NCBI GenBank assembly: GCA_963971425.1
Contig: OZ020517.1
Location: forward strand, 5,954,501-6,018,500
From: Bryoerythrophyllum caledonicum
Taxonomy: Eukaryota > Streptophyta > Bryopsida > Pottiales > Pottiaceae
Reading direction: 5' to 3'
DNA length: 64,000 bases
Numbering within the stretch: the first letter of the stretch is position 1; the number at the start of each line of letters is the position of its first letter. A program made the translations under genes and the position numbers. Below the pieces are notes generated by a model that ran no database searches, was not told the origin of the DNA, and saw only the letters and a program-made list of their open reading frames with translations. Positions 31,383 through 62,135 of this stretch are shown piece after piece.

Positions 31383-31392
31383 CATCAAAAGC
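31383..31392. repeat. Left target-site duplication of Mutator-like element
   Basis: CATCAAAAGC, ten bases, repeated exactly at 45786-45795. Nine to eleven bases is the usual range for Mutator-like insertions. Confidence 0.8.
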
Positions 31393-31406
31393 AGACGAGG
31401 CTATCG

Positions 31407-31434
31407 TGTGAGCGGTGAGCGGTGAGCGGTGAGC
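31407..31434 (+). repeat. Left terminal 7-bp repeat array (GGTGAGC)
   Basis: Four adjoining heptamers: one TGTGAGC and three GGTGAGC. Mirrored in inverted orientation by five heptamers at 45738-45772. Repeated short words at both ends are what one expects of transposase binding sites; binding is inferred. Confidence 0.85.
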
Positions 31435-31863
31435 TATAAGATTTGGATATTTAAGAGCAAAAATAGTTCAGACTTAAATGAAGATTTAAATAATCATAAA
31501 TTTTCATTTTTTAAATTATTTATAGTAAGATTTGAGACCTATAACCGTGAATCATTTATTCACAGTAACCGTTGAAAATTTGTTTTCAAGATGAATAAAA
31601 ATGGGATAAGTTAGTAAAATGAGTAAAACTGCAACTATCCAGGCAGATTCTGTGAAAGGCTATGCCGCATCTTTTAGATTAATTTAGCGCGATGCATTGT
31701 AAGAAATTTAAGGTAGTAAAGATTATGAGGAGTAATTTGATCGATTCTCTGAAAAACAGAAGAAAGGTAATACTGCAAAACTGGTAGTGGCCCTTTTAGT
31801 CTCACTACTGAATAATTAAATCAAGAGCTGCTTACAAGGGTTTCATTGTAGAAACTGTCAAAT

Positions 31864-34800
31864 CTACAAGTGTAGGTGGTTCAACAATCCACTCTCTAGA
31901 ACTCGCTTCACTTCATTGAAGCTAAAACTAGCTGCGTGCATGAATGTATCGGACTCTGAATCCAAACCACAAATGACTGTAAATACATAATAGAGGTGCT
32001 TACAATTGGCCCACTAACCACGCTTTCCAATTGCTTTTGTCGCCATCTCCTTGAAACTTGGGCAGGTGCATGCAGAGAGCTGCGAAATTGTCAAATAATA
32101 CTGCTGGACCTTTGGAGGTGTGCCCGAATCCAATGAAACAATGCATCCAAGGGCAGGGGCGGGAAGCATGCATAACTTGTGCACAATTCCTTTCAAAGAT
32201 AGGGCCGACGCACAATTGTTGGCATGCTTGGTGGACGGTGCCTTCTTGTTGCGCCGGATATTCTTCCCTGATCTGCGGGTGGGAAATTCGTCTGGATATG
32301 CTGGAGTCGTGTAAGTTGATAAGTCCATAAATAATGGTTGGTCCTGAAAGAGCCTTGCTGGCGACATCTCCTTCCGCTGGGGTAGTCTGAAGCCTGCATT
32401 CTCCAAGGAGAGGATCTCTTTGCGAGATAAATTAGTCCCCAACTTAACCGGCCAAACCTCTGGAACCTCAGGTCTTGACATCACCCACTTTCGACGAGTG
32501 CCCTTCACGCATCTTTCAATGTCGTCATTGCAGAAGAAGAATTGCATAGACTCCTTCCTGTTCTTCTTGTAGTTGTCCATCATGCCAGTGTAGGTTGGAG
32601 CAACAGTGTTCTTCCCGTCTTGTACAATCCGAGCGACGCACTTCTTCTTGGTGATGGCTTGTTGAGCAAAACACGCTTTGGCGGATGTCTTCGCAAGGCG
32701 TGCGATGTGCCATTCGGAAGGGTCGCATGCAGTCTCCTCCACAGCAGTGACGTGGTGGCAATCGATTTGATAAGTAGGTTGGTGTGGTTCAAGGCTCGGC
32801 TCCTCCTGATCAGAAGGTGTAGGAGAATCAGTTGGTGGAAGGTTGTGGTCGTTGTCATTGCGTGCTGATCTGGTTTGGACGCGCGGTCTTGACATGCTAA
32901 TCTTGTCGGGCCTGTGAGACTCATATTCAGAACCAAAAGCGATATCCGGCTTTCGTTTAAGAGAAACAAATACCTCTTCCCCTTCAAGGTGAGGAGTTCT
33001 GGTGCACAACACGTCGGCGCCAGGCATCTTCAAGAACGCTTCGTGGAGTGGTTTCGAGTTTCCAGTTCGAGACGATAACCTCTGAGCACTTCTGAGCTTG
33101 AGTTCTTCCTTTGACGGACCAGTACCAGGGCGCTCTCCTTTGAGGAATTGGTAGTATGCTAAGCACTGCATGAAGCCGCGAACAAAGTCGTCCACGGTCG
33201 CCACGTACAGGTCGCTCCCTCGATCGCCGGATTGCTGTTTCCACTTGTTATGGATCGATTCTGCAAGGTTACAAGATGGCATTTCTGCAAGTTCGTCTTG
33301 AGAGAGATCCTGCAATTGTAATATGGTGTCAATTTAGCCTTATCAGAGTACTTATGTAATGTTTGGAAGCGAAGTAGATTATGAAAAAAAAGGTAGAGGA
33401 AAGTAGAGGAATTACTAGCTGCATGAAGCCACCCCACTGCCGGTAACGAAAGTGCCAGAAGGCGAGCCAAACTTCAAGTCGAGGAAGGCCTTGTTCAGAT
33501 GCAGCACCGGATGACATCCACCATGCTCGAATTGCAAGATACTTAGTATCGGCCTCAGTCATGGACTTGACATTTTTGTATTGCTGGCAGAGTTCCCGGT
33601 GTTGAGCTTGGAGGTCCTGGCGAATGTCAGCCTTGGTGTGTTTTTCCAGAGACTGTGTCCAGTGGAAAAGGCAAGTCCTTTCTCTATCCACCATTTTCTC
33701 ACTCGCCACTCCACTTCCGTAGATGATGCGAACAACGTTCCAATTAGCCTGGGCGCTATCGGCCATGAATCCCTTGAAATTGACTTGATGCACACCGTGG
33801 CGCGCCATGACAACATTCAGATTCTTCCATACTACTGATTGGGCTGCAACGTCCTCCGATTGCATGTCACATACTGCGATTGTCATGACCCGACAATAAG
33901 TGGAGTCGTACACGTGGCAAGCCATGGTAGTCCAGGATCTGACACGTTTGACATGGTCAAACATTATCCATGCGTTCTCAAGGTCACCCCCAGACTGCAT
34001 TCGCTTCACCAAGTCAACTCCGCTGCCAGGCCCGACCTCGGACATCTTGAAGACGAAGACCTTGTCCATGTCTGATCCTTGTCCCGGAAACATATTCTCC
34101 TGAACAAAATTCCAGGTGCTCGAGCCTCGAAGCTTGGTAATGTTGTCCATGATTCCATACCGTCACAGATGCCTAAAAGTAGAGACAGAATTATGAAGAT
34201 TGGGAGAGGTTAGATGCTTGCACCGATCAAAGAGTGGCAACAACTCCGGGAGCTCCAAGGTCTTCCGTTCCTCGCCTTCTCTAGCCAAAAGGAGTGGGCC
34301 AAATACTTCCTTCGCTGTTTCAAGCACAATGGCGGAACGAGTTGCTGATGGAGTCCGTTCCACCTGTTCACCAATCAAGCTCTCTGTCTGCTCAATGAAG
34401 TCACGGAAATCACTAGTCTTGACAAGATGGTCGTCAGATCCTAAATGCACACATGCTCTCGTCATGTGTGGTGTTCCAAACACATAGTATATCTTCGCAG
34501 GGCAAACTGCAATACATGTAGGTGGGACATTACATGTTTTGCAAACTAGTGTGGAACCGGTAGGAGGACTGGATCCAACTTCAAATACTTTGACAGATAT
34601 TCCATCCCACTCAGTCTCATTCACATCGGCGGTTCTATGGTCTCGAGATAGATACTCACAGTCGACATTGTCACAACGGAGGTGGCCAAGACAGGAAGAT
34701 GTACGGAATGTAAGTTTCAATTCGTTTTGAATATTAGACGTGATGGTGCGAGACCAAGCATGGCCATCATAACGTTTGTCCATGCCACGAAGCTGCTTGG

Positions 34801-35515
34801 CTATAGTTTGCTGGCCATGGATTCCTAACGGAGGAAATTCAAAAACAATGTCTCCATTGTATTGAGGCGGAAGAAATTCTACCTGCTCTAATTTAATTGC
34901 ATTGAAATCTATTCGGGACAAGACATTTTTTGACCTCTTACGTGCACTAAGTTTCATTAAGGACTGAACTACGCTGATTGAGTAAATTGGTGGAGTATTT
35001 GACGGCTCGCTTGAGCGTGACGGACTCATAGGATGAGTTGACTTTTGGCGTATAGTTTGCGGAGATAGCGCCCTCTGCTCTCTGCACTTTGGTTCTAACA
35101 GTGAACCCTGGACGTCTTCACTGTCCGAGTCATCACTAAGCTCATAGATGGTCTCAAGACCTGGCTCTACTTCGACTTTGGAAAGCATTGGGGTCTTAAT
35201 GCTAATAGTGAAAGACTCCCGAGGAGTAAAAAGTTCAGCGGAAGCTGCTGAAACTGACTCAGAGACTCCATATGCTCGATACTTTCCGGGTTTAAGCAAC
35301 CAGAATGTCCCCACATCGTTCATACTCGACAACTGACCAATAGCATGCGAGACTTGTCCCGTTGTAATGTCAAAAACCTCTTCTTCCACAAAGACAGACT
35401 CTTCACGAAAAAGAAACCTCAGACCTAGGGTTGTGGAAGTGACCATGGCATGACCATCTTCACCCAACGGAAATGTAATTGGCACAGAATGCAAATCAAC
35501 ACGAATGAAGGCCAT
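31864..35515 (-). pseudogene. MULE transposase with SWIM finger, two nonsense codons
   Basis: Two exons (35515-33416 and 33309-31864, GT-AG intron, in phase) give one frame of 1182 codons, broken only by a TGA at 34165-34163 (codon 451) and a TAG at 32016-32014 (codon 1132). The N-terminal half has cysteine-rich segments (about 270-330). The catalytic core fits the MULE DDE layout: D about 537 in VYDSTY, D about 586 in FMADSAQANW, a C-x-x-HW stretch (CLFHW), and E about 717 in CNLAESIHNKW. A SWIM zinc finger starts CTCPSF and ends CKHLYYVF; the TAG falls inside it. An ATG five codons after the TGA could start a shorter protein that retains the catalytic core. Both stops can come from CGA and CAG by C-to-T change, as expected of a methylated element. 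As it stands the copy probably makes no full transposase. Confidence 0.82.
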
Positions 35516-36526
35516 TGTAGTCTAAGTAAATTGCAACCTCGCAAAGACAGAATGAAATCGATACAAAAGAGGGAATTTAGCAGAGGCACAGAAGATTAAG
35601 TACTTGCACAAACAAAAACTTCTTACATGGACGAATGTAAACAATTTACTAGAAGTAAATTTTGGGAGTAATCCAGGAATAAAATTTCTTTAACAGAATA
35701 GCCGTAAATGAAAAAGTAAACGTTGATATTCGGTATTTTTGCAAGTCCTATTCTTGAAAGTGAATGACGGCGGATAGATGCAATTAGAGAAATTTTTAAA
35801 GAATAGACGAAGGCACAATTCACGGTGTATAATTGCACTCTGACTGCACTATATGATTGGAATAAGATTGAAAGGTTGACAACCCATCATGTTCATGAAT
35901 TAAAGTGACTGGGTATTATCAGGCATTAGAATGACGGCAATGAACCCAAATTAACAATGAGTGACAAACAACTCATAAATATGTAAGCTATAAATAAAGT
36001 GTGAACAATTATTGAAGTGAATGGCGGCGGCTGACAGAGAGGAAGCTATCATATTTCTACCAAGTTGTATGCAAATTAATACATAAAATTCTGTAAATTA
36101 GTCGTCTACCTGAAAGTAAGGTGGGCGATCATTAATAATAGAATGGGAGGGTGAATGTTAGATGTTTTGGATTTGAAATTGAGCCAAGGAAGGAGGGGCA
36201 AAGATAAAGCAAATGAGGGATTTAGGCACATTACACATGGATACTTGACTGCGGATTTAGCCACAAAGCATGAGAGCTTGACAACACATTACATCTCATG
36301 TCGGCACAATTTATGTGAGTAGATGCGGCGTGATTAACTTACCTCAATGTAAATTTTTCGACTAAATCTTACCCTCTCGATTATTTGATTCAAGATAGGT
36401 ATCCCCAGATTTGTACTTGACAAACACTATCGACTAGACTCAGCATAGCGCCATCCTTTCTTCCTTCAACTTGCAGGAATACTCAAAGGTGAGAGTTTTA
36501 ATGTCATTTGAGAGTTGCAGATCCAG
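35516..36526. promoter_or_regulatory. Divergent promoter region inside the Mutator-like element
   Basis: About 1 kb between the leftward transposase and the rightward small gene. A GAATGACGGCGG-like word occurs near 35761, 35930 and (as GAATGGCGGCGG) 36020. These recurring words may be regulatory or protein-binding sites; nothing else recognisable. Confidence 0.4.
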
Positions 36527-37078
36527 ATGCCAGAGGAGAGAGAGGAGTTGTTATGTTTGGCAATTGCACAGAAGAAGAAACGTAGGAGGCGTGGTTTGCG
36601 CTTCTCTAGTACGAAGCAACTAAAGAGGTATAGGATGAGCAAGAGAGTTGCTCCGAGGGTAGACTATGATGTGGGGGACACCGCACGCGTCCTATCATTT
36701 GACACTGAGAATTGCAGAATCAAGGGCAGTTTAAGAACTGTTATCGAAGTGCAAGGAAGCGTGCCATCAGACCTTGTGCGGAGTGGTGGTGCTCGGAGCG
36801 GTAATCATGGAAGCAGTGACTCGGAGGGGCGGAGGCAAGGGATGAATCGAGGAGCCAAGGTGGAGGCAAACGAGATGGAAGAAGAGCAATCACTTTTAGA
36901 CTTAGGTACAAGTGAAGCGCCTTCAAGTCAATCTGAGGAGCATGATGATTTATTGAACAGTCAAAGCAGTGAAGAACCAAAGAAGAGAAAGGTAAGATCT
37001 GACTTGCTTTGCTTGGACTTTTCATGTGTGTTTAAGATAGTGAGTTTAAGATGCAAGTCTTCTCAGGTCAAATATTAA
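36527..37078 (+). CDS. Small basic protein with C-terminal NLS-like motif
   Basis: Two exons (36527-36991 and 37067-37078) separated by a 75-bp GT-AG intron encode 158 residues. The N-terminus has a lysine/arginine cluster (QKKKRRRRGLRF) and the middle is hydrophilic and acidic. The spliced C-terminus reads EEPKKRKVKY, which contains the classic monopartite nuclear-localisation pattern PKKRKV; the last V comes from the second exon. Because the intron is a multiple of three with no stop, the unspliced message ends at the same stop with 25 extra residues. I do not recognise the family. It may be an accessory protein of the element, or a host-derived passenger. Confidence 0.5.
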   Translation: MPEEREELLCLAIAQKKKRRRRGLRFSSTKQLKRYRMSKRVAPRVDYDVGDTARVLSFDTENCRIKGSLRTVIEVQGSVPSDLVRSGGARSGNHGSSDSEGRRQGMNRGAKVEANEMEEEQSLLDLGTSEAPSSQSEEHDDLLNSQSSEEPKKRKVRSDLLCLDFSCVFKIVSLRCKSSQVKY

Positions 37079-39017
37079 TGATTAGGAATGCTCATGGAAT
37101 GGTGGCAAGGAATTGGAAGTTATTGAGCTCGGTAGGCTTCAGGGCCGAAGCTTCTTTTGGGCAACCGTTGGGCCTTGTCTAAACATATTCTTTTTAGGGA
37201 AATTGACCAATATACTCTTGGAGTACATAGTCGTTGGACCGAAAAGAATATTTGAAAGTAAAAAATTTCTATCATCATGAAAGTATATGATTGTAAATTA
37301 CTTCCACTATCATTCATCCAACTCATCTCAACGTGACTGGTCAAATATTTACCAACGTTGGCTTTTTGTTGGATGTAAAACTTCATTTAGGCTACATTGG
37401 TATTAGAGAACAAATTAGAGTATAATACCCTCAACATGAGGGTCAGATTTTGATCATGTATGGATGCCATTATCAACAACTTCAAATACATTTGGTCCTT
37501 TAGATGGTAGAATAGTTACTGAGCTTCAGTGATTAGACTTCATACCATAACTTTTGACGTACATAGTCAAATGTCGAAGCCATTAATTATATTAATTGTA
37601 ATGTTAAATTCAAAAGAGAGGGACAAACTGTTTGTCAGAAAATGAATGTCCTTGGGGCTAAATTATCATAATGAAGAATAAAAGTTGATAAAAAATCAAC
37701 TCAAAATCATTCAATTATGTCTATTCAATATATTACAATTTCGATGAGAGACTTCAACTGTAATGTATCATCTTCCATCAATACGTGTCACCAAAAGTAC
37801 ATTTCCAGTGAAAATTTCCAGAGACCATATTCTAAACAAGGTCTAAGGAGTCCTGGGGAAAGCAAGTTACACAAGATATATGGTTTGGGAGGAGTCAGGA
37901 CTGTATATGGTCTGTGAACGTGGAACCTTTCTGACGCTTGTCTTCAACTGACTTTTGTCCTCAACTGCTTGATTTTACCGCTAGCACAATTTTCAAAATC
38001 ATCGAACTGGGAGCCAGCTTCTTCTCACGACGTGTGTAATCTCACAGATGTAATCTCACGTTGTCGTAATCCACGATTTGCACTCCAAGATGGGATTTTA
38101 GCCTTGTGTACAATGAGAGACATCAAGTATACATTACCACTAATACATGTCTCTTAAGTGTTGAATAAAGTAATTTGTAGATTTGAAGTCTAAAATGTCT
38201 CTGCTGTCTAGATTTATTCGCAACGAAGTTCCTGTGAAGTGTAGATGATGACTATTCTGTGCACGATGTTCCTGTGAATGTACCATTACCTGTTCTAGAT
38301 CTGGAGGTCTTGCATTGGACTTCGTCACAGAACCCAACTCTGGCGGAGTGCCGGCAGAAACGGATTCTGCGGTTCAGTCTTGGTGATTTGCCGGTTCAGT
38401 CTTGTAGGATTCGTTAGAGAAGTTTGCAGGATTCGTCACAGTATTGGTGAGAAGTTTGCTGGATTTGTTGCTGGACTCATCGCGTATGTGGTGATCGTCG
38501 TATCTGTGCTGGATTCGTCGTTGTTGAAACTTGTGGTTGTTGGCGTACTCTGGTTGTGTCCTGGTGCGAACGCTAGGTCGATTATGGGTCTCGTTAGGTC
38601 TTGAAGTGCGTCGTTAGGTCTCGTTAGGTTTTCAAGTGCGACGTTTGGTTCCAAGGAGGCTTCGGCGCCGAAGCCTTCTCGATGTGCAGAACGCAGTATC
38701 TCCGTCGACATCCTGGCGACAAGACCTCGACCTCCCAGCGCCGAATTTTTGGCACCACGGGACAGATTCCATCGTGACAGCCAATGGCGAGACACGCAAC
38801 GCGACTCTTCGCTGCGGAACAGAGTGCCGCGACTGGCATCGAGACACTCACCTTGACCTGCAGCGAGACTTGCACCTGGACACTTCGCAATCAGTGCCGG
38901 AATTGCAGCAGGACACTCCGCAGCACAATCTCACCAACAGTGCCGACTTCTTCCGTGTAGGTCGTTTAATTTGATAATTGTGTTGTGTGCCGGTGACAGG
39001 AAGTTGACAGAAGAACG
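37079..39017. other. Non-coding stretch upstream of ParB-methyltransferase gene
   Basis: No supported protein gene. The part from about 38300 is GC-richer, and a splice donor (GTAG/GTCG near 38960) could end an untranslated leader exon for the gene starting at 39018. Frames on both strands at 38430-39200 are short and motif-free. Confidence 0.4.
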
Positions 39018-42000
39018 ATGGAGGCTCCTCTCGGAGAGAGTTCGGCACCGAACCCTCCTGTTGTTGCGAATGTAAGTCTTCCAGTTGATTACGGTTCTGG
39101 ATATGTATATCTACAGTAGTTGCGCTTGGTGCGCTCGATACCTTTCGGGATCCTTCAAGCTGAATCCAGATTCTCTTGTTGGTCACAGGAGGGAGCCGAG
39201 ATGACACAGGACGGAGAGCAGCTGGAGCCTTTGGCGCCGAACTCTTGCATGGCGACCGAGGTAAGCCTTAACTTTGACCTCGAAATCTAGCAGAATGTGG
39301 TCGATCCGACTCTGGTCAGGCTCTCAGTTACTAAATTGAGATCTTACTTTAGAAGATATTCACGGTCAAAGTTAGCTGGTCGAGATCTTCAAACCTAGCT
39401 GGTTGAGCTGCATCAACGCGTTGATGGTCTGTTCATGCGAATTCTGCATGTCATTAATGGCCATGTACGTCATGATCTCGAAGTACTATCATAAGTCCAA
39501 CTCGGGTCAGGTTCTCAATTACTAAATTAAGATCGAATGAAGTTCAACTTTTGGAAGGTTGTAGAGATTTCCCATACCATTAAAATGACACCATTCATGC
39601 TTCAAAATTCCTCATACTTGAGGAGATATTCTCAGTCAAAGTTTGAAAACACTATTAGGGCATGCTGTAATCACTGTTCTCGAGAAGGTTATGAATAGTT
39701 TTCCTGCAGACAATAGTTTCGGTGTTGTCTTGGGAGATAGTTTTCAGTTCCAATCCTCTCACTGGGTGGGTGCAAGATGGGTTCAGGCTCTGCGCTAGAC
39801 CCTTGAAGCTCACATGCACACGTTGAGTATGCACACGTTGAATATGCTCACATGCACACGTTGTAATTGCTGTGGTGATGGATCATCTTGTAGATTGTGT
39901 AGGGCGAGTGTACTTCATGTGCCTGCAGTATGAATTGGAAGTTGCGGGTTAGCTAGGAACAGTAGCTCACCCAAGAGTGAGTTCTAAAGGAGCCGTCGGA
40001 AGTGCAAACCAAAAGGATTTTAGTTCTAGAGTGTCAACTGTTAGCTGAGGAGCTGGACTGTGTTTGCATGTAGCGGAGCATTATTATGAAAGGCAACATA
40101 AATTGACTGTTCCCACGCTGCAATGCTTGCTATTTGCTAGTGTCCACCATTCGACAATTCTGGGGAAGTGGGCTTGGTTGATCATTTGAACGTACCTTTC
40201 TCAGGAGTAGCTTCCAGTTTTTTATATGGGCTGAAAAGAGTGGACAATCATTTGCACACTGAAATTTGAGGTGCAACTGTGGCCTACTCGACTAATCTAT
40301 ATTATGGTAGAACGAACATTATCTATGTCTTGGGGGCTACAGACTCAATCATGCTGGAATATCCAGTCTGAGTGAGACTCGTAAAATTTTGAAGTATTTC
40401 AGTATTGCTTCTCATGGAGAGAGTTTTCTTCGCAGTTTTGCGTCCTGCCCAAAACTGCGGTGTATGCTCATTAATACTCATAATCTGCCCAAAATCAGTT
40501 AGATCGCAGTAACATTATATATTCACCAAAAAATGAGTTTTTTCATTTTTTCGAATTTTGTTTTTCGTACATGTAAAAGGGATAGTAAAGCATGATCTCA
40601 CCGTTTGGATTTTCAATACAATAATTTTTTTCATGCCTTAGTATTACTATTTGTATTTCAGCATACCTCCATGTGGAAAATTGAAAGCTTTGGCATTATC
40701 TAGTATTGCTATGATTTAGTGAATTCTTTAATATTTGGATACAGGTCACTGATTCGGAGGATTCAGTTGCCGACTCCGACGACTGCACAACGGTGAAGTG
40801 TCCACCAAATTGCCACGATGCTAAAGAAGGGGAGCGATTGCGGCGCAAGTTGGAGAAGCGAGACTATCACTCCATTTTAAATAGCATGCGATCTTTGGAT
40901 TTAGGGTTACAAATCCCATTATGCAGGCTCTTACCTTTGCCACGAGTTAGACCAGTTCAAGAGGTGGATGTCCGACGCTTGGAGATTCTTTTTGAAGATT
41001 GTGATGGATATGATGATGCAGATCGTGCTCTATACGTGTCCATCTACAACGATAAGGAGACCACTACTGACGTTGGAGACGAGCATCGAACTTCTTGGGG
41101 TCATCATTGGCATGATGCAAATGACCGGTTTGACGCCCAGCTTGAGTCTTCAGCTTTATACGCTCATCTGAGAGGTAAGATGTTCTATGTTTGGGATGGC
41201 AATCACAGATTCTCTGCTTGGTGGCGCAAAATCAACATCGATCACTCTGAGGAAGCTCGCTGGCATTTCTCAGTCATCTGCATCGTCTTGGACCCCCGAG
41301 GCCGCATTGGACCTCTTCTGAATGCAATGAACGACGTTAACTGGTATGTCTTTGAAATTTCTATTTTTTCAAATTCCATTTTTTCATTTATTTTCTTTAA
41401 CCACTCTCAAATTAGGTCCACTCAAAATGATCATGTCAAGATTAGTCTCCCTGCTCGATTGACACGGATGCGATATTTTGGAGCACTTTCATTGGAGGAC
41501 TTTCGTGACTTGCTGATTCCCACTGAGTACAAAACTTGTGGAAAAATAAAAAAGAGTAGGCCGACGTGGTTCCCTCTCACGGTTGATGTCTTCATCTCCT
41601 TTTTGTATCGGGTGCGTTTTCTTTTATCACATTTGAGATTTCAAGATTATTTCACTCAATATTTAATAAAGACTTCGTTGCTAATAATTGAAACTTATTC
41701 CCAGGCTGACATATCCCGTGCTTCTGATGAGGCTGTCCGTGAGTACAATGATCGTACTCAGGAGAAGGATAGGACTGCGGAGGCCGTGTGGGGGGTCATG
41801 CAGGCTGCTTCAGAAAAAGCCATCAAAGTCAATAAGCAGAAGGACTTTCTGAAGTACTTGACTGTGGCGAATCCTAGAAATGGGGAGGATTTCTTCAATC
41901 AGGTTAGAGCATTTCAACTCTATTTCTACTTTCATGTCATGTACATATACTGTCTTTCGTGACTTTTCATATTTTATTTCATGTCATTTATCATAAATAT

Positions 42001-44723
42001 TTTTTATGGGCAACAGATCAATTTGCACTATAGTACAAATTCCAAGCCAGAGATGACAATTGAGAAGCTTCAAAAGATTGCAACATCTGTGGTGGAGCCA
42101 GAATTTAAAGCCAAATGGCTTCGGTGGTGGAATTCAGGCACTATGCGGCGAGCCGCCTACCGCTTCCTTCCTGCCAATTTTAAGGAGGCAGACCTTGATT
42201 CTTGGCTCAACAAAGCCACATTTTGGGCTCAGGTAATGTGATTTCCTTGCATTCATTATTCTTCTTCTGTAACTTCATTTAATTCCACTGCTTGATTATA
42301 TATATTCATTGCAGATCGAAGACCGTGTTGTCAAGCAGTTCAATGAGATTTCTGGTGATGAATTGGGTAATATTGATTGGAGTGCATCTGGAGGCATCAA
42401 AAAGCCCTCTGATTTTGTGGAGTCTTGGAGAATTTTGCTTTGGGACAAAGCGTTCCAAACTTTTCTCCACCCAAATGCTACCCCTCCTTTTATGAAGGGA
42501 TCCATATTTGATGATCATCCTGGAGCTCAATTGGCAGAGAGACGTGTGTTATATCGGTATTTTTTGAACCTTAACTTATATATTTATAATTGTCTCCTTT
42601 CACTACATTGAATTTTTTGAGCTTGCTAAAAAATTTTCTTCTGGCAGATATATGATGCGGGAGCTTATTTCTAAACATGCCATTCCATCTCAATCTCTCC
42701 CACCCTATGTTGAAGCTTGGATCAAGCTTTCCTCCGACCTTTGCATGTATACTCCAGTGCAACAAAAGAGGTACGCAGCCAATCACCTCGAAGCTGGGTG
42801 TTGGTACCTTGATTGTTCACCAAACTATACTCCGGATGATGAGGTACACATTAGGAATAACCTTGATGCTGCTTCTGTGTCTCCTACTGGAGCTACCGAA
42901 GTTGTCGACCTTCTTGAGGAAGACTCTATTCAACCAATTCATGTTCGTGGCGACGGTTCATCTCAGAAGAAGAAACCTTTGACCAAAGCCCAGAAGGAGG
43001 CGGTAAACAAGGTTACACAAGTGAAGGAGGTAGGAGATGCCACTACTACTGCGGCCTCTAGTCTTCCTACATTCTCAGTATTACCTAGCAATATCACTGC
43101 CCCAACAAGTGACCAACATGGTATGTTACCACACTCTTCATCTCAGTTCCCTACCACTTCAAGTGTTGCACAAGCCACGGAGGAGCTCCTTGGGCAACGG
43201 AAAGTCCGCCAGCTGCCCTCTGCTTCCACCTCTGTTGCACAGATACATCCTTTGGACGTGATGTTGGAAAATGCGTCCCTTTTTGCGGTAATGGAGACTC
43301 TTGGTAGGCCAGCAGGCCCTGATCAAATATGGGAGACGCTTCATCAATTTATTACCCAGGTATTTTTTCATATTTATTACCTATTTTAGTTCTTTAGACT
43401 ATTCATCAGATTATTCATCATTTCATCTCACTTCTTATTGTTTCATGCAGGTTGGTTCTGGTCGAACACGTCGTGTGTCTTCTCCACATTGTAAGAACAC
43501 CGGTCTGGATCTCATCATCGCCGACATTCCAGAGAATCTGCCAGTGCCTGGCATTTCAACGCCGCCTTCGACAATTCCACAATGGAATTCACGACCTGAA
43601 CGGTATGTAGAGTCCATTTTTGAGTTTGGTGATGCATATTTACATGATGACGCCGCCATTCTTCTTTTCCACTGTGATGATCGTGCACTCTGCTCCGAAG
43701 TTGAAGAAGTTGCGGAGCAATATAGCTTCCACTTTTGTAAAGATTGGTGGGGAATTAATGATATTGCCTTGGCATCTCCAAAGTTCCCCTCGACCACGGT
43801 ACGATATATTTTCCAATTCCATTCTCTCTTTTGGATTTTTTTTTATCATTTGTGATTTTTAATGGATTGGGTCTATTGCAGTCGCATCGCTTTTGGATCC
43901 AGCTCTTTGTCCGTGATGAACCCATTCAATTACAATTCTCTATCATAGAGAATCGTGAGCTTTCGGATGTGGGTCTCGAAGTTGAGCAGACTGACACTTT
44001 TTTCAATCTCACCACCGTCAAGAACCAGCTCATGCGAGGGAGTTTGCCCTGGCGTGGTGCACGGGAAAAAGATCCCCTTTTCATGCAAGTCTTGATTGAG
44101 TCCTTCACAAAACCTGGTGACATCCTGTTGGATTGGAAGGCCTCCACTGGTACCATTCATGAACTCTTTATTTATTTTTGCAATTTGATTTCTTGTTAAC
44201 CATTATCATATGATTATTTATATGTTTTCTAATTCTTGCAGGTGCCTCTATTCGTGCCTGCCAAGCCACTGGTAGGCACATTGTTGCATTTGAAGATGAT
44301 CTGGATATCTTCACTACAATCCTCCAGCCATTGGTTGCTAAGCCTTCTCCTCCTCCGGCGGTTGCCAGGAAGTCTGTCAGGAAGGCTAGCCAGCCTCTTT
44401 TAGAGGAGCGCCCATCAAAGAAGCCAAAACGCAATCGATTTGCCTGTGCGTAAGTTTTTTTTTATTTATCCATTCTAAAATATTTGTAATCCATATACTC
44501 TACTTGTTAGCGGATCACTAACTGTATGTTATGCAGAGCTGTTTGTTCGAGCCTTCTGGAGGCTTTCACGCTTCCAAGCTATGCCGAGGATATGGCTAAT
44601 GCATATGCACACACTCCTTCTCCAGCTCCTTCTCCTCCCCGCCGCGCATTCCATTCCAGTGTGGAACAATTTATGGATGTTGAGGCTTCGGAAGGGGATG
44701 TTAGTGAGGGATATAGTAGTTAG
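39018..44723 (+). CDS. ParB-like / N6-adenine-methyltransferase-like fusion protein (transposon cargo)
   Basis: Twelve exons join in phase: 39018-39071, 39189-39260, 40745-41343, 41416-41611, 41705-41902, 42017-42232, 42315-42556, 42648-43359, 43451-43798, 43882-44149, 44242-44449 and 44537-44723, for 1099 residues with no stop or frameshift. The N-terminal third resembles a ParB/sulfiredoxin-type domain: VDVRRLEILFED, then VWDGNHRFSAW (about 191-201), the G-x-x-R box of that fold. The C-terminal part follows the order of beta-class adenine methyltransferases: DLIIADIPEN at 783-792 where DPPY is expected, then FTKPGDILLDWKASTG and ATGRHIVAFEDD (about 953-988) where P-G-D-x-V-L-D-P-F-x-G-S-G-T and G-R-x-x-x-G-x-E are expected. 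The altered tetrapeptide and SAM loop suggest no methyl transfer. A basic patch (KKPKRNR) and Pro/Ser-rich tail end the protein. Bacterial and phage proteins pair these domains; here the gene is fully intron-split, so it is long resident. Possible role: DNA binding or epigenetic control of the element. Confidence 0.8.
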
Positions 44724-45192
44724 GAAGGGTCTTCACTTGTAGCCCGTGATTTTACTAGTATTTGTATTTTCAGTGTCATTGACTTGTGAGTCCGACATGC
44801 ATATTTTTTATGTGCAATTTGGCTAACAATCATTACATGTGTTTCTAAATATTTATTTTATATATTATATATTTTGTATATGGCCTACTACTATTCATAG
44901 TTTTATTTGTGGGCCATAAATAGTAACTAATGTATTAAATATAATAAAGTAAATAAATTGGTAGAATTTATGAGATTTTACCCTTAGTTAGTCAATTAGA
45001 TGTGTGTATATGATTAGCAAAGATATTTCACTCAAATTTGAATTTCTAGTTTAGCAAGGATTGTATTTATCAAAGTCATTTGGTATTAGTGGGTAACGGT
45101 GACTTATCTAGAGAAATGATATGGATGGAAGTTGTACTGGATATCACTAACCAGTATTAAAGCTTGAGGTTTCTCATTGCAAAAAACATGTT
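44724..45192. other. Downstream region of cargo gene
   Basis: AT-rich sequence after the stop of the ParB-methyltransferase gene, presumably its 3' untranslated region and terminator. No gene seen. Confidence 0.5.
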
Positions 45193-45482
45193 TTTAAATA
45201 ATTGAAAAAAAATTTAAAAAAAAATATAGACAAAGAAGGAGAAGAAAAAGAAAAAGAAGATAAAATTTTATACAAGAAAAAATAGAAGAAGAAAAAAAGG
45301 TAAAAACATTATTAAAAATAAAAAAAGAAAAAGAAAATATAAAAGAAGAAAAGAAGAAAATGAAGAAGAGAAAAAATGGAAAAGAAGAAGAAGAAGAGAA
45401 TAAATTTAAAAGAAAATGATAAGAAAATAATGGAAAGAGAAAAAGAAAAAAAACAAAGAAGAAGAAAAAGAAGATGTATGGA
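45193..45482 (+). repeat. Polypurine (A/G) tract
   Basis: Nearly 290 bases of almost pure A and G on the plus strand, dominated by GAAGAA and GAAAAAG words, near the right end of the Mutator-like element. The complement is a polypyrimidine tract. Mirror-type purine tracts can form triplex DNA; that is inference. Long phenylalanine-rich frames on the minus strand are artefacts of this tract. Confidence 0.8.
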
Positions 45483-45737
45483 GATGAAGAACAACAACAA
45501 TATAAAACAAAATCAAATAAAATCAAATCCTCCTACCGTTTTGTTTGCTCTTTTATTCTCAAAATTTCAATACAACAGATATAATGTCAAAATGCCCCAC
45601 TCACTGTAAACAAATCCCACGGTTATAGAACCTCTAATTACTAAAAAAAACCATCCAACCTCTGATAATCCACGGTAATAAATCCCTAGGATCTAAATTT
45701 TTGGAACTTTCATCTCGTCGCCACTTAAAATTCTCTG

Positions 45738-45785
45738 CTCACCGCTCACAGCTCACCGCTCTACGCTCACATAATAGCATTCCCC
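45738..45785 (-). repeat. Right terminal inverted end of Mutator-like element
   Basis: On the minus strand, from the outer end: GGGGAATGCTAT, a 2-base spacer, then five heptamers (TGTGAGC, GTAGAGC, GGTGAGC, TGTGAGC, GGTGAGC). It mirrors the left end at 31393-31434. Confidence 0.85.
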
Positions 45786-45795
45786 CATCAAAAGC
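45786..45795. repeat. Right target-site duplication of Mutator-like element
   Basis: CATCAAAAGC, identical to 31383-31392. Confidence 0.8.
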
Positions 45796-52783: not shown

Positions 52784-53395
52784 AAAATGTGAAGATTGAA
52801 GACCGCAAAGTAAAAGGTATAATACACATACTAACTCATTTTTACTACAAGTTCTATATACTTTGTAATCACTATACCAATAGACATTACATAGTAGAAT
52901 ACAAGGAAGTACTTATAGTATTATACATTGAAGTATCCACCGCAACAATGGTATTATACATAGAACAATATAGAGTAGAATACATGGAAACATACATAGT
53001 AGAATATCCCATCTTATACTATATTAAAACCAAAATATATACATACATTATATTGAATACATACTGTCCAATACAAGTAAATACATTTGTATTTATATTG
53101 ATATAAATACCAATATAGCTATTGGTATGAATACAGATCCAAACTAATACAAATACTGGTATAAAATACTAATACAAATACTGGAATAAAATATAGTATA
53201 AACACCAACAATGACACTCGAATAAAAATCATCAATACCGGTACAAATACTGGCACCAATAAATATAATAGCACAACTACGCATACATATACTAATATTG
53301 ATACAAGTTTATCTAACACTTCTACAAACACAATTACAAACACTAGCTTCAACACTACAATAAATACACATATTATTACAAAACCAAACCTAAAT

Positions 53396-54376
53396 ATGCC
53401 TATACACAAATGCAAAGTACAAAACAAAGAATATAACTCTTTCCGCACACTTGATAAAACAAAAGACACAAACACCAACAAAAACACATACAAAAACTCA
53501 ACCCCTGGAATATATCTACTAAACCTTATTTCAATACATTTACAAATGCATATTCCATTCAAAATTATAAACACAAAACCACTCCTGTTTCAAAAAACAA
53601 AAATTAAGAAATTACCAAAAGAAAATGTTAATGAAACATCCCTCTTACTGTTATGTGGTGACATTGAACAAAATCCGGGGCCTATGCCAAATGTACTATG
53701 CATCCATCCTCCAATACACAAGAAAAGAGAACAAATGTACTTTATTCCAAGTACTATCAAATTTCAACCGGAATACCAACATCTTGCAAAGTTATATGCA
53801 CCCCTTGTAAAAACCTCCCACACGTTTTATAATGAATACAACAACACATATCCACATTTATATCGCTATATCCAAACAATACAACATTTCCCCCCAACAC
53901 ACATAATATATGCCATCATAGTTACAATTAGCCCATCTTTAGAATCATGCAACTACATAATCTCTTCAAATATCGAACAAGACTCAAATATTATTTGGAA
54001 AACTAACTTACTACACACACTCGCGGCTCTCGAGAATCCCCCCGAGTGACATATTGCCACCGAGTGACATATTGCCACCGAGCACAAATATACTCAATTT
54101 CAGAAAAATAACCAGAACATAATAAATCCACCAGACCTAATCCACGACAAACTATACGACAACATACACAAACACAACACAGAAGTAACCCACCACATAC
54201 TAGAAAACAAATTCCCTTTCCTGTCTCATGAACTGATTAATAAATCACTAAGATGCCTCGAACCCATTACGGCTACACTCACCCACCAGTCAACAATTAC
54301 ACTCCTCCAACACTACAACCCCCAACAAATAACCAACACAATACAATTTTCATCACTTGGAACACAACATCATTAA
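53396..54376 (+). pseudogene. LINE ORF2 N-terminal part with 2A-type motif
   Basis: The frame starts in a region of Asn/Thr-rich low complexity (it may begin upstream, near 53160). It reaches a 2A-type motif at 53639-53683 and continues with a hydrophilic stretch before the endonuclease. TGA codons at 54047 and 54065 lie in a perfect 18-bp tandem duplication (54043-54060 and 54061-54078). The frame then stays open to 54376, overlapping the start of the AP endonuclease in another frame at 54253. Position just before the endonuclease fits 2A-type sites of other LINEs, where the motif would separate an N-terminal peptide from the enzyme polyprotein. Confidence 0.7.
53639..53683 (+). other. 2A-type ribosome-skipping motif
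   Basis: Fifteen codons read SLLLLCGDIEQNPGP. The last eight residues fit the 2A consensus D-(V/I)-E-x-N-P-G-P exactly, and the preceding leucine-rich stretch ending in CG is also typical. At such sites the ribosome fails to form the Gly-Pro bond and continues, releasing two proteins from one frame. Activity here is inferred from the consensus alone. Confidence 0.85.
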
Positions 54377-55397
54377 ACACTACACTTCCCAGCATCCAAA
54401 ATATGACTACAGAACTTCAATCTACCCCATCATTCATCTTCATACAGGAAACCAAAATAACAACCACAAAATCAACAAAATATTTGAAAGACTATTTCCT
54501 GACTATAAGTTAATATTCAACAATCTTTAAGGACTTACCAGATGTGTGCAACAAAGAAGACCCTACACACATACAAGAGAAGGACTACTAACACTCATCG
54601 ACAAAACGTATGCTTTTCCCGGAAATATAATTAAAACATATCACTAACTATATCACAAACCATATCACAAAACTGCTAATATATCACCTTACCTACAAAT
54701 AATAAAAATCACAAACTATCCACTTCAACCATGGCTACTCATACACCTCTACATGCCCTCACATCAGGACGACATTGGGCTTATAAACGAAATACAAACA
54801 AACATCACAAATCAAATTCAAAACCATCAAAATCACACCCATATTTTAACTGGTGATTTCAATAGAGATATTGCCCTCATCGGTCGTACAAATAGAAATC
54901 ATACCATGCCCCCCCCCCAAGACATAGACTTTGAATGGAAAACATATATTGATACCCTACAAATGTCATACATTCATACTAACACTACCTTCTCAAGACA
55001 AGGTGGAAACAACTATACAGAGACAAGCTTAATAGATGGATTTTATATAAACATCCAAAATCAACAACAATACTCTTGCACAACAAACACAGATAACAAT
55101 TTAAACTCTGACCATTATTCACTTCAATTAAAAATCCCAGTCAATACATTTATCAGTAGAAAACCGCAATCAACAAACAACAACACCATTAGAATCCTAA
55201 ATCCTATCCCACCAGACAACATGGAAAAATTCCATAGTGCCTACTTTGTGAAAAATTCACTAATCATTGAACAACTAATCAACATTCTAGAAAATAACGC
55301 AAATCTTACAAATACTCAATGGTTAGAAGCATGTGAAACATTGGATACACCAACTCAAGAGATATCGGCTATACTTGAGCAAACTTGCAAAGCATAA
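54253..55397 (+). pseudogene. LINE AP-type endonuclease domain
   Basis: Motifs in order: IFITWNTTSL (the position of the first active-site Asn), FIQETKI (catalytic Glu), then after a broken stretch with a frameshift near 54510, YMPSHQDD, ILTGDFNRD (GDFN metal-binding motif), LIDGFYI and NSDHYSL (the terminal S-D-H triad). This is the exonuclease-endonuclease-phosphatase fold that nicks target DNA in APE-type LINEs. The gap between the halves contains TAA/TAG stops, so no intact enzyme is made. Confidence 0.85.
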
Positions 55398-57252
55398 TCT
55401 CTACCTCAACTTACCCCCAGAACCGCACAACAAGGTGGATTCTTGCCTCACAAACTAGCAAAACCATGGAAACAACATCTATCAACATATCACTTCATCG
55501 ATAAAATCATACGCATAGTAAATTCAAACGTAAAGTGGCGCGACCATACTATACTCCACAGCTTGCAAACCCATAGATACATAGACATACCACAACCACT
55601 AGCAGACAACAACCTGGTAGAAACATGGATTGCAGAAATAGCACAACTAGCACAGCAAGCCAACAAACATGCCCGTAAAATTACAACCAAATACAATAAA
55701 GAATGTATTAAAAAAACCATATCAAATGTAGACATTTATATGAAAAAAGCCCTAAAAAGATAAATAGAAAGGTCTTCAAAGACAACACAACACATGCACT
55801 TGACTGCATTATAGACCACCAAGGCAACATCCTCACAAGCCCAGAAGATGTTGCTAATGAAATATACAGACAATAGTGGCAAATAAACAAACCAACAATA
55901 CCTACATGCCACTACCAAAACACACACTCTGACACATGTGTTTGCAACGTCAGACAATACCCTTGGAATGAAGTAGACGGATTTATCTTAGAAAATAGAG
56001 GAGAACCAGATATCCCACTACACACATACTTTAATAAAGAAACATTCGATATGTGTCTTAAAAAACTAAGTAAAAACAAAGCCCTTGGACCGGACCGCAT
56101 TCCAAATTCAATACTAAAAAATATGCCTGAAAAATATCACAAACTACTATACCTTTTCTTCAAACACTGCTACAGACAAAAACAAATTCCTGAACTGTGG
56201 AAAACTAGCTTAACTATATTACTCAATAAGAAAGGAGACCCCTTTATACTAACTAACCATAGGCCCATTGCCTAAGCAAACACTATCTATAAGTTATACA
56301 CAAGTACACTAACATCAATTTTGTCCACGTATGGAGAAAAACACAACATATTATACAACAACCAAGAAGGATTCAGAGCTGAACGTAGTACTGCTCGACA
56401 AATACAAACACTAATAGTTGCTCTAGAAGACGCTAAATTTACCAACCAAGACATATATATTCTATATGTAGATTTCAAAAATGCATTTGGATCTATAGAC
56501 CATGCAAGACTACTTGCAATTATGACAGACCTTGGATACCCGAGAGACGCAATTACACTTATTGGAAATATCTACTCACAATCCACAACCTCATTCATTG
56601 GGGAACACTTTGGGAAAACCCACCCAATTCCTATACAAAGAGGCACAATTCAAGGCGACACTCTAAGCCCATATCTTTTTATAATATTCTTGGAACCTCT
56701 ACTCAGATGGCTACAATGTGGAAACTATGGGTACACACTAAACACATCAGGAATCACAATCAATTCTGCCGCATACACAGATGACCTAGCAGCATTATCC
56801 GATGAACCAAAATCCCTACAAACATAATTAAATAAAATAGACAAATATTGCAAATGGACTGGAATGGATGTTGGAGTGCCCAAATGTGTAGTCACCGGAA
56901 GCCCCAATGAATCAAAATTGAATCCGAGAACCTTTAAAGCACAAATGTAGGCCATAAATATTAACTACAGAAATCAAGCTATCCTAGTAATACATGAAAA
57001 TGAAGCATATGTATATCTTGGGGCCCAAATGGTACCCTCATTAAAATGGAAAATTCAAACACATGTTACCACTACAAAACTCAACAAACAATGTCTAGCA
57101 TTGACAATTGCCCAACTACTATGAAATAGAAAATTAACATGATTGATACTGTTATTAGACCTGGGATATCATATAGCTTCTATAATGTTCCATACTCAAT
57201 GCCAAGAATAAAAAATTTAGACAAAAAATTATAGCAATACAAAAAACAATAT
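55398..57252 (+). pseudogene. LINE reverse transcriptase domain
   Basis: The conserved core runs from about 56051 to 56827: KALGPDRIPN (motif 0/1), LTNHRPIA, QEGFRAERSTARQ, YILYVDFKNAFGSIDH (motif A, catalytic Asp), RGTIQGDTLSPYLF (motif B) and AYTDDLAAL (motif C). Motif C reads YTDD in place of the more common YADD. In-frame TAG/TAA codons at about 55874, 56274 and 56825, and further ones after 56900, break it; most could derive from CAA or CAG. One shift of frame separates it from the following module. Confidence 0.88.
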
Positions 57253-58182
57253 TTGGTCTTCCAAAATAGGAATATATTTGCTCTAATAAAAATCCACAAA
57301 CTTATAAAAAGTGCATTAAACCTAGCAAAACAAGTTTTTTGTCTCCCCAAATGTCATGACACATGCCCTACTACGTGTAACATACCATTTACAAACCCAC
57401 GCACACTCAAAGAGGAATATATTTGCTCTGACAACAATATAACCCCTAATATCCTCACCCCACCTACCCACCCACCCGACCCACTTCAACCACGATATCC
57501 TAGACCACCTCCACATATTCTCAAAAACCCCGCAACATACCATTTACAACACATAATTGGTGTTAAACACCGTACATACTATGACACTAAAAATGTTAAA
57601 GTAGAAGGCACGTCATTCCATTGCCAATGGGAGAACCAAGGAAATACATACACTACATGGCAAACACAACGAGACCTATTTCCATGGCACGACCCCAATA
57701 CCGCAACTCACCAAGTAGCATGCCTCAAGAAATACTACCAAGCTCAAACTAACAAATTCTACCAAAAAATCATACAAGCACACCACCCTCAAAACCAATG
57801 TATAGACACACGATTAATCACACCCCCTACGCAAATTCCCCTAGCACATATCTCTATCACAAAATGTAATCCACAGAAAGACATTAACTCACAAAAACAC
57901 ACCATTCAAATTCAAAATAACGAAGCACACATTTATGAGAATAGTGGAAAACACCTAATAACTATTCCTACAAGTAGACTAGAATGACTTTGGAATCAAT
58001 ACCACCTAGCACTAAACACTCCACACAATCTAGAACCAAAAACCCAACCATTTGAAACTGAAGTTGTTTGGCTATACCAAAGATACAAATACAAAATTCC
58101 TAAAACTGACTTCCTTAAAAGGACATAATACACTATATCAACAGAAATACTAGACTTCCTCACTACAACATATAATATCTAA
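57253..58182 (+). pseudogene. LINE chromodomain-like segment and linker
   Basis: The frame carries a cysteine cluster (CLPKCHDTCPTTC) and a proline-rich stretch. Then comes a segment of about 60 residues with the chromodomain pattern: IIGVKHRTYYD, KVEGTSFHCQWENQGNTYTTW and ACLKKYY, i.e. a first strand, a K/Q-W-E strand, a T-W element and a C-terminal helix. Chromodomains are common in integrases of some retrotransposons but unusual in LINEs; the match is by eye and moderate. In-frame TGA (57985) and TAA (58126, 58180) codons follow, while the frame itself continues unbroken into the next module. Confidence 0.45.
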
Positions 58183-60288
58183 CAATCATACTTCTCATCC
58201 CTAGTCACATGCTCTACAAAGATATCTATATTCTTCTCACCATTCTCTAGAGACCAAGTTTTTGGTTCACTTGGCAAAGCATTTGATTACAAATGGGACG
58301 ATATTGGATACGCACACCCACACAACAAAGAAGAAGCCCAAAAAGCGCTACATTGGGCTAGACTTGCAGCTAAACATGATTCAAGAAATATAACCTATCT
58401 TGTATTACCAGACAAAGGTTGGTACCAAAATCTTACTCCTCATATAGGCCCATATATAGACTCTCATATCATATGTCTATTCCCAGCAGATACCATAGCT
58501 TATTTTGAACCAACCATACTAGAAGAGCTCAACAAAAAACCCCGAACAAAAAAATCCACTTTACAAATAATATGTGTACATCAACAAAACAACACAATAG
58601 GTACCCAAATCAGCATAGAACACCTAAAATCACTAACCAATACCCTCAACATAAAACAAATATATGCCAAATTAGCCCCATCAACACCCACACCCAACAC
58701 GGTTAACCGTAACAAACAATGGTCCAAAGCCGAATACCAAAACACAAATCAAGCACCCTTGGTCATCCCAATACCACTCCCACCATATAACACAAATCTA
58801 TTTCTTAAATTTAACCGAGAATATAGCTATTACACAGACGGATCATTTAAAGAACCACAAGAAGTAAGCCCGAGACACTGGCATAGAGAAAAAGCCGGCT
58901 ACGGCATATATAATGCGCCAAAAGACGTTAAAATAGCCAAACAATTATATGGACTACAAAACATTATCAAAGCCGAAATGATGGCTGTCCATAAAACACT
59001 ACGTATTCTAAATGCTAAATACCCAAATGAGCCCCCATACTTATTTACAGACTGCATCAATGTATTATACCTCTTAAACACACAAATTCAACATCCTATT
59101 GTGCACAATGGCCACCCCGATAAAACTATTTTAGCATCAATGGTGCAAATGCTACAAGCACGTACCCAATCCATATCATTACACAAAGTAAGAGCCCATG
59201 TGAACATTGATGGCAATGAAAAAGCCGACGAATTAGCAAAAATTGGTAGAGACAAAGAACATAGAGAAGCTAGAGAACCATTTGAACATGCCCACCCCAC
59301 CCCATACTATTATCAAAGAAAGGAATGGCCGTCTATGGAAGACACCCCGGACAAAGGCCCCATCAGATTCCTACCCGAATACCTCAAAAGATATGACTTA
59401 CACAACAACTTAACAAAACTAGCGACAAATTTTCCAAATATAGAAAAATGGGCAGGCAATAGAAACATTGACAAGGAACTCTCCAATGAATTTTGGACAA
59501 ACCCTCTTATTACAGACTCACAAAAAACATGTATTATAAAATTTAGAACAGGCCAATATATGGGAAATGCACGTAAACAACTATTCTTTGGGAGAAAAAG
59601 ATTTCCCTCCATTACATGTCCCATTTGTAACTCTACTGAACCAGATACATGGCTACATGTATTACTTAAATGTCAACAACCACACATCCACGCAATGATT
59701 GTCAAAAGACATGACAAAGCAGTATGGAAAATTAGAAAACTACTCGTATCCTCTAGTAAATCTAGATGCCTCACCTATATGAACGCGGGAACCTTTCACA
59801 ACAACCCTCCGGAAAACACAGTCCCACAATGGCTACTACCATGTACATGCAACATTCAAAGATGTCACTGCAACGCCAAATTTAAACCCGATTTACTATG
59901 CATCCGCGGTGTGCCACGCAATCACCCCCTACCAATAATTCCAGACCCAACCATTACTATACAATTCATAGAATTCACATATTGCAATGACCGGTTCCCT
60001 CCAAAAACAATAACACACAAGATAAACAAATACCAACCTCTTCTAGATGAAATTAGCTCATTAGGATGGAAAGTGGATCCGCTACTTGTAATCACGGCTG
60101 GAGCTAGAGCCACTACGCATTTTCCCTCCATGAAATCTTTGGAATCCACATTTAAAATCTCAATGACCTCCATTAAAAATACCTTAAAAAACTTTAACAC
60201 CATTGGTATCCAACATGCTATGTCCATCCTCCTCCACAAACGTAGACTAGAAAATAACCAACCAATACCCGACCTACACACCTCTTAA
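58183..60288 (+). pseudogene. LINE PCIF1-like segment, RNase H, CCHC finger and probable restriction-like endonuclease
   Basis: This 701-codon frame is open throughout. Its first part (58220-58620) resembles the catalytic domain of PCIF1-type cap adenine methyltransferases: FFSPFSRDQVFGSLGKAFD, a helix, YLVLPDKGW, then a late strand ICVHQQN. At the NPPF catalytic position it reads AHPH. RNase H follows, with YYTDGSF, IKAEMMA, LFTDC and NEKADELAK supplying the D-E-D-D set. CPICNSTEPDTWLHVLLKC is the CCHC finger. The last 150 residues have KPDLLCIRG, a strand IQFIEFTY and NKYQPLLDEI, which fits the PD-(D/E)xK restriction-like endonuclease of R2-type and Dualen LINEs. RNase H and finger are firm; the end domain is probable; the PCIF1 match is moderate. 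Confidence 0.75.
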
Positions 60289-62088: not shown

Positions 62089-62135
62089 GAGAGAGTAGAT
62101 CAACAATTTGATCGCCTAATCAATAAGCTCTAGTT

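Follow-up and report, generated by a model that had tools for sequence, protein, structure and literature searches.

A giant MULE-like transposon in a moss pairs its transposase with a methyltransferase-like protein that lacks the canonical motif IV

What is a gene for a methyltransferase-like protein doing inside a transposon of more than 14 kb? The question is raised by a stretch of 64,000 nucleotides from the moss Bryoerythrophyllum caledonicum (assembly GCA_963971425.1, contig OZ020517.1, positions 5,954,501 to 6,018,500 of the forward strand), here called the window, in whose numbering all positions are given. A first-pass annotation, made from the letters alone, had read positions 31393-45785 as a large Mutator-like element (MULE) with methyltransferase cargo. 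The analysis reported here makes it probable that this is a giant MULE-like transposon in which the second protein is a conserved and probably non-catalytic partner, used in transposition or against silencing. To our knowledge such transposon partner proteins, MURB, VANB and VANC among them, are still poorly understood. A replaced catalytic motif together with natural swaps of partner makes the role of this one testable with natural variants.

The element is 14,393 bp long and the boundaries first given for it proved exact. It is flanked, as had been claimed, by an exact 10-bp target-site duplication, CATCAAAAGC; when 72 and 70 nt around the two ends were compared, no other shared word of 7 or more letters was found. 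The inverted heptamer arrays reported at both ends were also recovered, as arms of 35 nt (31400-31434 and 45744-45778) that are built of GGTGAGC-like heptamers and are 86% complementary, and GCTAT does lie at an equal distance inside the two ends, starting 7 nt inward of each. These features are not due to chance, because ten further full copies end likewise.

All genome searches covered the host assembly of 437 Mb in 894 contigs. The assembly gave one strong match to the LEAFY domain SAM_LFY (E 1.3e-27), a marker of plants, together with six weaker ones, whereas the 14 control genomes gave none. A search with the second-gene protein gave 221 matches (39 of 5482 candidates scored), and 36 further copies were listed by means of its large exon, ten of which were compared in full length. 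With the window element, which belongs to subfamily A, this gives eleven copies from subfamilies A, B and C. The right end is common to all ten, while the left end is close to that of the window in five and diverged, on the same plan, in five; the five other subfamily-A copies align with the window's left terminus from the same first or second base. An exact 10-bp duplication flanks nine of the eleven copies, C11_24.9 has one that matches at 9 of 10 positions, and the rearranged copy C1_27.9 (16.1 kb) is without one. Only the ends were read for eight more copies, drawn from the remaining 26 and picked because they scored alike as one group, and all eight have exact 10-bp duplications (five as cut, three after a register shift of 1-2 nt by eye). 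Among the 19 copies with both ends read, 17 duplications are thus exact, one matches at 9/10 and one is missing, so that the further copies to be expected of a mobile element, with the same ends and duplications of 9-10 bp, do exist. Two members of the like-scoring group share 99.9% of their letters over 14,371 bp, suggesting that the family moved recently.

The element is thus a genuine transposon of unusual size that was mobile in recent times, and its family is both large and young in the host genome, with hundreds of listed loci and young copies that are nearly identical. Its size is notable, the elements described here measuring 14-20 kb. According to the accessible part of PMC6431247, no reported Pack-MULE exceeds 7 kb and DNA transposition is less efficient above 6 kb; the same source mentions CACTA elements of 16-20 kb in a red alga.

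The kind of transposon was judged from the transposase gene and the ends. In the window the transposase is interrupted by an in-frame TGA in exon 2 and an in-frame TAG inside the C-terminal SWIM motif, positions at which the compared relatives read through. Other stops or frame problems occur in the transposase of three of the A copies compared, and C8_8.42 and C11_24.9 have no stop within the aligned exons. The SWIM pattern CxCx(n)CxH is found at the C-terminus in all four lineages compared, across which the candidate residues of a DDE (Asp-Asp-Glu) triad, D86 or D99, D135 and E266, are invariant. As far as the accessible text of PMC6446971 goes, MULEs make duplications of 8-11 bp and SWIM fingers are frequent among their groups. 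The 10-bp duplication, the terminal inverted repeats, whose plan is similar in a distant lineage, and the C-terminal SWIM zinc finger, a common but not universal MULE feature, are consistent with this.

Profile comparison gave a different result. The transposase had no Pfam match up to E = 5, the MULE domain included, and scans of it with NCBIfam and Pfam gave nothing useful. A genome search with the Pfam MULE profile PF10551 found nothing at the window transposase (138 matches listed, best 150 of 384 candidates), and hhalign of the transposase core with four MULE-domain proteins of the same assembly returned a probability of 0.2%, from shallow alignments. The lack of a Pfam match and of a profile match to local MULE proteins would be expected if the transposase came from a DDE-type superfamily of its own, with duplications that are 10 bp long by coincidence. 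This is unlikely, given that 10 bp lies within the MULE range, that the pattern CxCx(n)CxH, in all four lineages, is of a kind frequent in the group table of PMC6446971 (accessible part), and that the candidate DDE residues are invariant. MULE membership is thus partly supported, by duplication length, ends and SWIM finger. Since no profile links the transposase to MULEs, the element is named MULE-like: of the "MULE transposase" and "large MULE lineage" in the first-pass annotation, a large lineage with 9-10 bp duplications and many same-ended copies stands, and the MULE transposase was not confirmed by profiles. The best three PF10551 matches in the genome sit on the small contigs C340 and C165 (L001-L003); these proteins are unlike the others viewed, and contamination is possible.

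Besides the transposase, two further genes had been predicted. More probably the element holds two genes in all, head to head, and not three (Table 1). The small plus-strand open reading frame (ORF) at 36527 was considered as a third gene and set aside, since it is more likely to be where the second gene has its 5′ exon; in the window, the ORF from 36527 and the acceptor before 39000 join in phase 0. From 39018 the exons of the second gene are all in phase, giving 1099 residues and ending at 44723. From the exon at 40745 onwards it is open in seven of the eleven copies; extra stops are present in C2_21.8, C3_8.5 and C1_27.9, the last of which has also lost an acceptor, and in C10_9.3 the joined frame is broken by 42 stops. 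Four copies of a GGCTTCGGCGCCGAAGCC-like repeat of 23 nt are present (at 37132, 38655, 39035 and 39224), two of them inside the small exons of the second gene.

Table 1 Features of the element, in window positions
Feature	Position	Strand	Remarks
Target-site duplication, left copy	31383..31392		CATCAAAAGC; exact match to right copy
Left terminus	31393..31434	+	AGACGAG, GCTAT and GGTGAGC-type heptamer array, in that order
Transposase gene	31864..35515	-	Model exons 35515-34224, 34172-33416, 33309-31864
Approximate recombination breakpoint, transposase side / second-gene side	36080..36081		Element position ~4688; from alignments to C3_8.5, C1_27.9 and C8_8.42
Second gene, inferred 5′ exon	36527..36991	+	Basic, like a nuclear localisation signal; EEPKKRK end before donor GTAAG
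Second gene, small exons	39000-39071, 39189-39260	+	
Exchanged module (exons from 40745 and right end)	40681..45785	+	94-97% identical between subfamilies
Second gene, main exons, first half	40745-41343, 41416-41611, 41705-41902, 42017-42232, 42315-42556	+	Open, in phase
Conserved motif FYVWDGNHR	41183..41209	+	ParB-like by eye only
Second gene, main exons, second half	42648-43359, 43451-43798, 43882-44149, 44242-44449, 44537-44723	+	Open, in phase
Methyltransferase-like domain	43451..44449	+	Motif IV position DIPE (exon 43451-43798), motif I position DWKASTGAS (exons 43882-44449)
Right terminus	45737..45785	-	Heptamer array, GCTAT, GGGGAAT; read inward from 45785
Target-site duplication, right copy	45786..45795		CATCAAAAGC; exact match to left copy

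The pairing of the two genes was followed through the genome with the best 140 scored of 2475 candidate transposase loci and, for the second gene, the best 150 of 1704 and the best 150 of 2602 candidates, which gave 299 typed loci (149 of the 150 rows of one list, a second fragment being dropped, and 150 of the other). A second gene lies head to head within 25 kb of 78 of the 140 listed transposases, at a median of 7.1 kb, whereas random placement gave a mean of 1.2 pairs and a maximum of 5. Other arrangements of the two genes account for eight locus pairs. Among the right ends scored (best 40 of 325 candidates), 37 have a second gene upstream, at 4.3-4.9 kb in 36 cases and at 17.6 kb in one. 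The genes do travel together, then, a point that the first-pass annotation had wanted checked. Some of the unpaired transposases result from the second-gene lists holding best matches only. When the DNA beside two initially unpaired ones (C14 and C4; L056, L057) was inspected, a second gene of about 40% identity was present at both; C14 was later paired by the second list and C4 is still unpaired there.

The same pair was met in a distant lineage. A genome search with PF01555 gave eight matches, none of them in the family of the window element. The one that was opened (L037-L039) is part of a further element of this sort, about 19.7 kb long, with the end plan seen in the window and a 10-bp duplication (10 bp or more), CTGTCGACTG. 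Its second protein is 35% identical to that of the window over the part containing the DGNHR motif and 54% over the motif I part, and its transposase, upstream on the other strand, is 44% and 34% identical to the window's in two segments. Seven of the eight PF01555 places come up again, with at least 97% identity, when the genome is searched for the distant lineage, and so look like copies of one element family. The pair of transposase and second gene is old and repeated across lineages. Near its right end the distant element also has an ORF of 419 aa, in which the eye can make out a RING-like pattern of cysteines (L039, minus strand, at about 19.4-20.7 kb of the joined L038+L037+L039).

As the second gene is also found beside a transposase that is only 34-44% identical, "cargo" is probably the wrong word for it. 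MULEs often capture host sequence (PMC6446971 and PMC13317346, in the parts accessible), and the second gene could in principle be a captured host gene, a passenger of a large Pack-MULE-style element with no role in transposition. Pack-MULEs are captured fragments without a transposase; here the transposase is present and the second gene is an open, multi-exon gene paired with it across lineages. The introns, the divergent pairing at many loci, the occurrence of a PF01555 match in another such element with seven of eight looking like one family, and the purifying selection described below all argue against a passenger, which we regard as highly improbable, though there may be an unlinked host gene.

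By profile comparison the C-terminal domain of the second protein is related to β-class DNA methyltransferases. A profile made from a four-row alignment, with exons joined by hand, matched DpnA at 9.1e-7 and CcrM at 2e-5. Searched against PF01555, the window protein scored 0.0023 and that of L057 2.6e-4 (21.4 bits), both below the cut-off, and the distant-lineage protein 3.6e-7 (30.8 bits), above the cut-off of 26.7; Pfam gave for the second protein only PF01555 and a chance-level match to PEX6_N (E = 1.6). Within the domain motif IV precedes motif I.

The canonical catalytic motif IV is of the DPPY/NPPF type. It is absent at all 14 loci read (the window, D, L057 and L058-L068, these 11 being picked from 150 matches listed), where DIPE, DLPE, ELPD, DVPE, DMPD, EYPD, DLKD and DQPF are found instead. 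The form is [DE]xP[ED] at twelve loci, DLKD at one and DQPF at one, and the aromatic residue, kept only in the DQPF of the distant lineage, is E or D at the other 13. Among the eleven A, B and C copies C2_21.8 alone reads DIPK. In an alignment of 13 of the loci (L061, near-identical to L062, was left out) the residues near motif IV, VPG and IPxWN, are invariant or nearly so. With its own position and its neighbourhood conserved, the motif looks like a maintained alternative and not like decay. The "methyltransferase" of the first-pass annotation is right, then, in that a domain of that kind is present (PF01555 in a relative, DpnA at 9e-7), and needs amending in that motif IV is non-canonical throughout.

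If the second protein nevertheless methylated DNA (at adenine or cytosine-N4), with motif IV in an unorthodox form, and the transposon marked its own DNA in this way, this would account for the profile relation to DpnA and CcrM, for the order of the motifs, for a motif I loop, DxxAS[TV]G, kept in all four loci aligned, and for the constrained appearance of the motif IV position. The absence of the DPPY/NPPF-type motif at every locus read and the acidic replacement of the aromatic at all but one make such activity quite unlikely.

The DGNHR motif is invariant in four lineages. Its likeness to ParB, noted by eye, was unconfirmed by Pfam or PDB, and a ParB-like domain was rejected for this region as neither gave a profile match. 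A bacterial or phage origin of the gene was also considered and rejected, since the matches from tblastn against phage were weak and pointed to methyltransferases in general (103 records, E ≤ 1, the best shown 1e-4). In viral contigs no relative of the DGNHR part was found, and one ordinary phage-type methyltransferase with DPPYG was. A relative of the second gene does occur in a cyanobacterial metagenome bin (L070, CADCWO010000058.1; 57% over 97 residues to L064). The match has interruptions that look like introns and is read as eukaryotic contamination of the bin, so that the gene family is probably not confined to this host.

Selection on the second gene was estimated from the exons from 40745 as the ratio of nonsynonymous to synonymous substitution rates (dN/dS). 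The ratio is 0.29 and 0.26 for the window against subfamilies C and B, 0.25 and 0.25 for C15_14.9 against the same two, and 0.14 for B against C, with a dS between subfamilies of 0.05-0.08, near the intron divergence of 0.05-0.09. The second protein is under purifying selection between subfamilies.

The copies may also bear a trace of methylation. When four A copies were compared (the window, C10, C15 and C2, with C3 and C1 left out), the private C>T/G>A changes of the window copy amounted to 2.5% in CG, 2.1% in CHG and 0.8% in CHH contexts, and the same order, CG > CHG > CHH, was seen in the other three. Such an excess of transitions at CG and CHG is what methylation of the copies by the host would be expected to leave. 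It would suit a second protein that acts like VANC, as an anti-silencing factor removing or blocking host methylation of its own copies, a reading that overlaps with the one preferred here. Within its own family, VANC binds to short motifs repeated in tandem (accessible part of PMC5735166), which may be set beside the tandem heptamers at the ends of the present element, and the exchange of modules described next recalls the transfer of TET/JBP genes between fungal transposons (accessible part of PMC12730594). A VANC-like function in particular is possible, if rather less than probable; the "epigenetic toolkit" of the first-pass annotation, and any editing of DNA methylation by the second protein, are likewise hypotheses.

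The second gene has not stayed with one transposase. Between subfamilies the transposase side shows 66-73% DNA identity, against 94-97% for the last 5.1 kb, introns and 3′ flank included. These contrasting identities indicate recombination between the transposase side and the second-gene module, and the breakpoints recur near 36080 and 40681. Transposases with at least 93% protein identity to the window's number 22, of which 20 are paired: eleven with a second gene at least 95% identical and nine with one only 48-54% identical. A window-type left end was found about 1.8 kb from the transposase in seven of these nine swapped elements (42 rows read, left ends only); of the other two, C15 has one about 20 kb away and C14 has none near. 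The second gene and right end have moved between transposase lineages. Separately, the small 5′ exon is doubled in tandem in C3_8.5 (L017-L018) and C1_27.9 (L021-L022), where a diverged version precedes the window-type one by about 0.9 kb and looks like a remnant of module exchange.

A mechanism can be proposed on this basis. The transposase would bind the terminal heptamer arrays and the element would be cut and pasted. The second protein would enter the nucleus by means of the localisation signal-like sequence in its 5′ exon and act without transfer of a methyl group to an amino group, as a DNA-binding and perhaps S-adenosylmethionine-binding partner that marks the element's own copies. Such marking might either license transposition, a role like that of MURB, or counter host silencing, as VANC does. 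A transposition cofactor or an anti-silencing factor are the likelier roles of the second protein. More broadly, a whole branch of plant transposons may depend on two obligatory partners, namely a transposase and a catalytically re-purposed DNA methyltransferase that recognises the ends and shields or licenses the element, the helper module and right end being traded and evolving apart from the transposase and left end; this we put forward tentatively, as it falls a little short of probable.

Several observations weigh against the proposal of a conserved partner in a MULE-like element. In addition to the negative profile comparisons of the transposase, 62 of the 140 listed transposases are unpaired among the matches listed, and a lineage without the second gene may exist; likewise, no second gene accompanies 3 of the 40 right ends scored, among the matches listed. 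Within subfamily A the dN/dS is higher (0.58 and 0.47, two pairs). The DGNHR region gave no convincing Pfam or PDB match. Finally, the exons upstream of 40745 are an inferred model, and in five of the eleven copies the two splice sites of the 5′ exon were not both found: the window, C10, C15, C2 and the two C copies have both, in C3_8.5 the donor alone was found, C1_27.9 has a changed donor and no acceptor was found there, and in the three B copies neither site was found by the pattern used, subfamily B having only a weak match to this exon.

Elsewhere in the window, 53000-60285 (plus strand) holds retrotransposon remnants, by eye of the type without long terminal repeats: a reverse transcriptase (RVT_1, 4e-20) lies at 56279-56824, and the ORF of 700 aa at 58186-60285 contains an RNase H (3e-11). 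A transposase of the DDE_Tnp_4 family (4.5e-27), which we take to be PIF/Harbinger-like, lies on the minus strand at 62142-63725 within the region 60822-63725, where plus-strand ORFs adjoin it. A lone fragment of eukaryotic large-subunit rRNA (65.5 bits) at 8543-9187 on the minus strand, outside the element, was the only Rfam match in the window at the gathering threshold.

A literature search, mostly outside subscription papers, returned no title or abstract describing such elements, which is weak evidence of novelty, and the word "methyltransferase" does not occur in the main text of the MULE paper PMC6446971. Known systems nevertheless offer partial likenesses. The C-terminal domain of the second protein resembles the β-class enzymes DpnA and CcrM in motif order and shows significant profile similarity to them, but here motif IV is replaced, long extra N-terminal regions are present and the gene is eukaryotic and intron-rich. 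MuDR, with mudrA and mudrB, is much smaller than the elements described here. It too is autonomous and combines a transposase with a second gene of unclear biochemical role (accessible part of PMC6446971); the second gene here differs in having 12-13 exons and a recognisable methyltransferase-like domain, MURB being compared by description. KIU VANDALs, which carry Ulp1, are likewise MULEs with an enzyme-derived domain in a conserved companion gene, of a different enzyme fold from that found here (accessible part of PMC13317346).

For the exchange of modules, the nearest parallel comes from fungal DNA transposons, which have passed TET/JBP genes among themselves (Kojima 2025, PMC12730594, in its accessible part), and in which a gene of the DNA-modification type is likewise present in several lineages and has passed between them. 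Here, by contrast, the protein is methyltransferase-like with an altered motif, the host is a plant and the exchange takes place within one transposase family. For function, the VANDAL MULEs of Arabidopsis with VANC share with the present elements a SWIM-type transposase, companion genes, short tandem motifs and a companion that acts on copies of its own family, which has been shown for VANC and is proposed here. They differ in that the companion here is methyltransferase-like and that the elements are 14-20 kb long, with inverted terminal arrays and 10-bp duplications. VANDAL and VANC would be the nearest functional analogue of this transposon and its second protein, likened by role and not by sequence.

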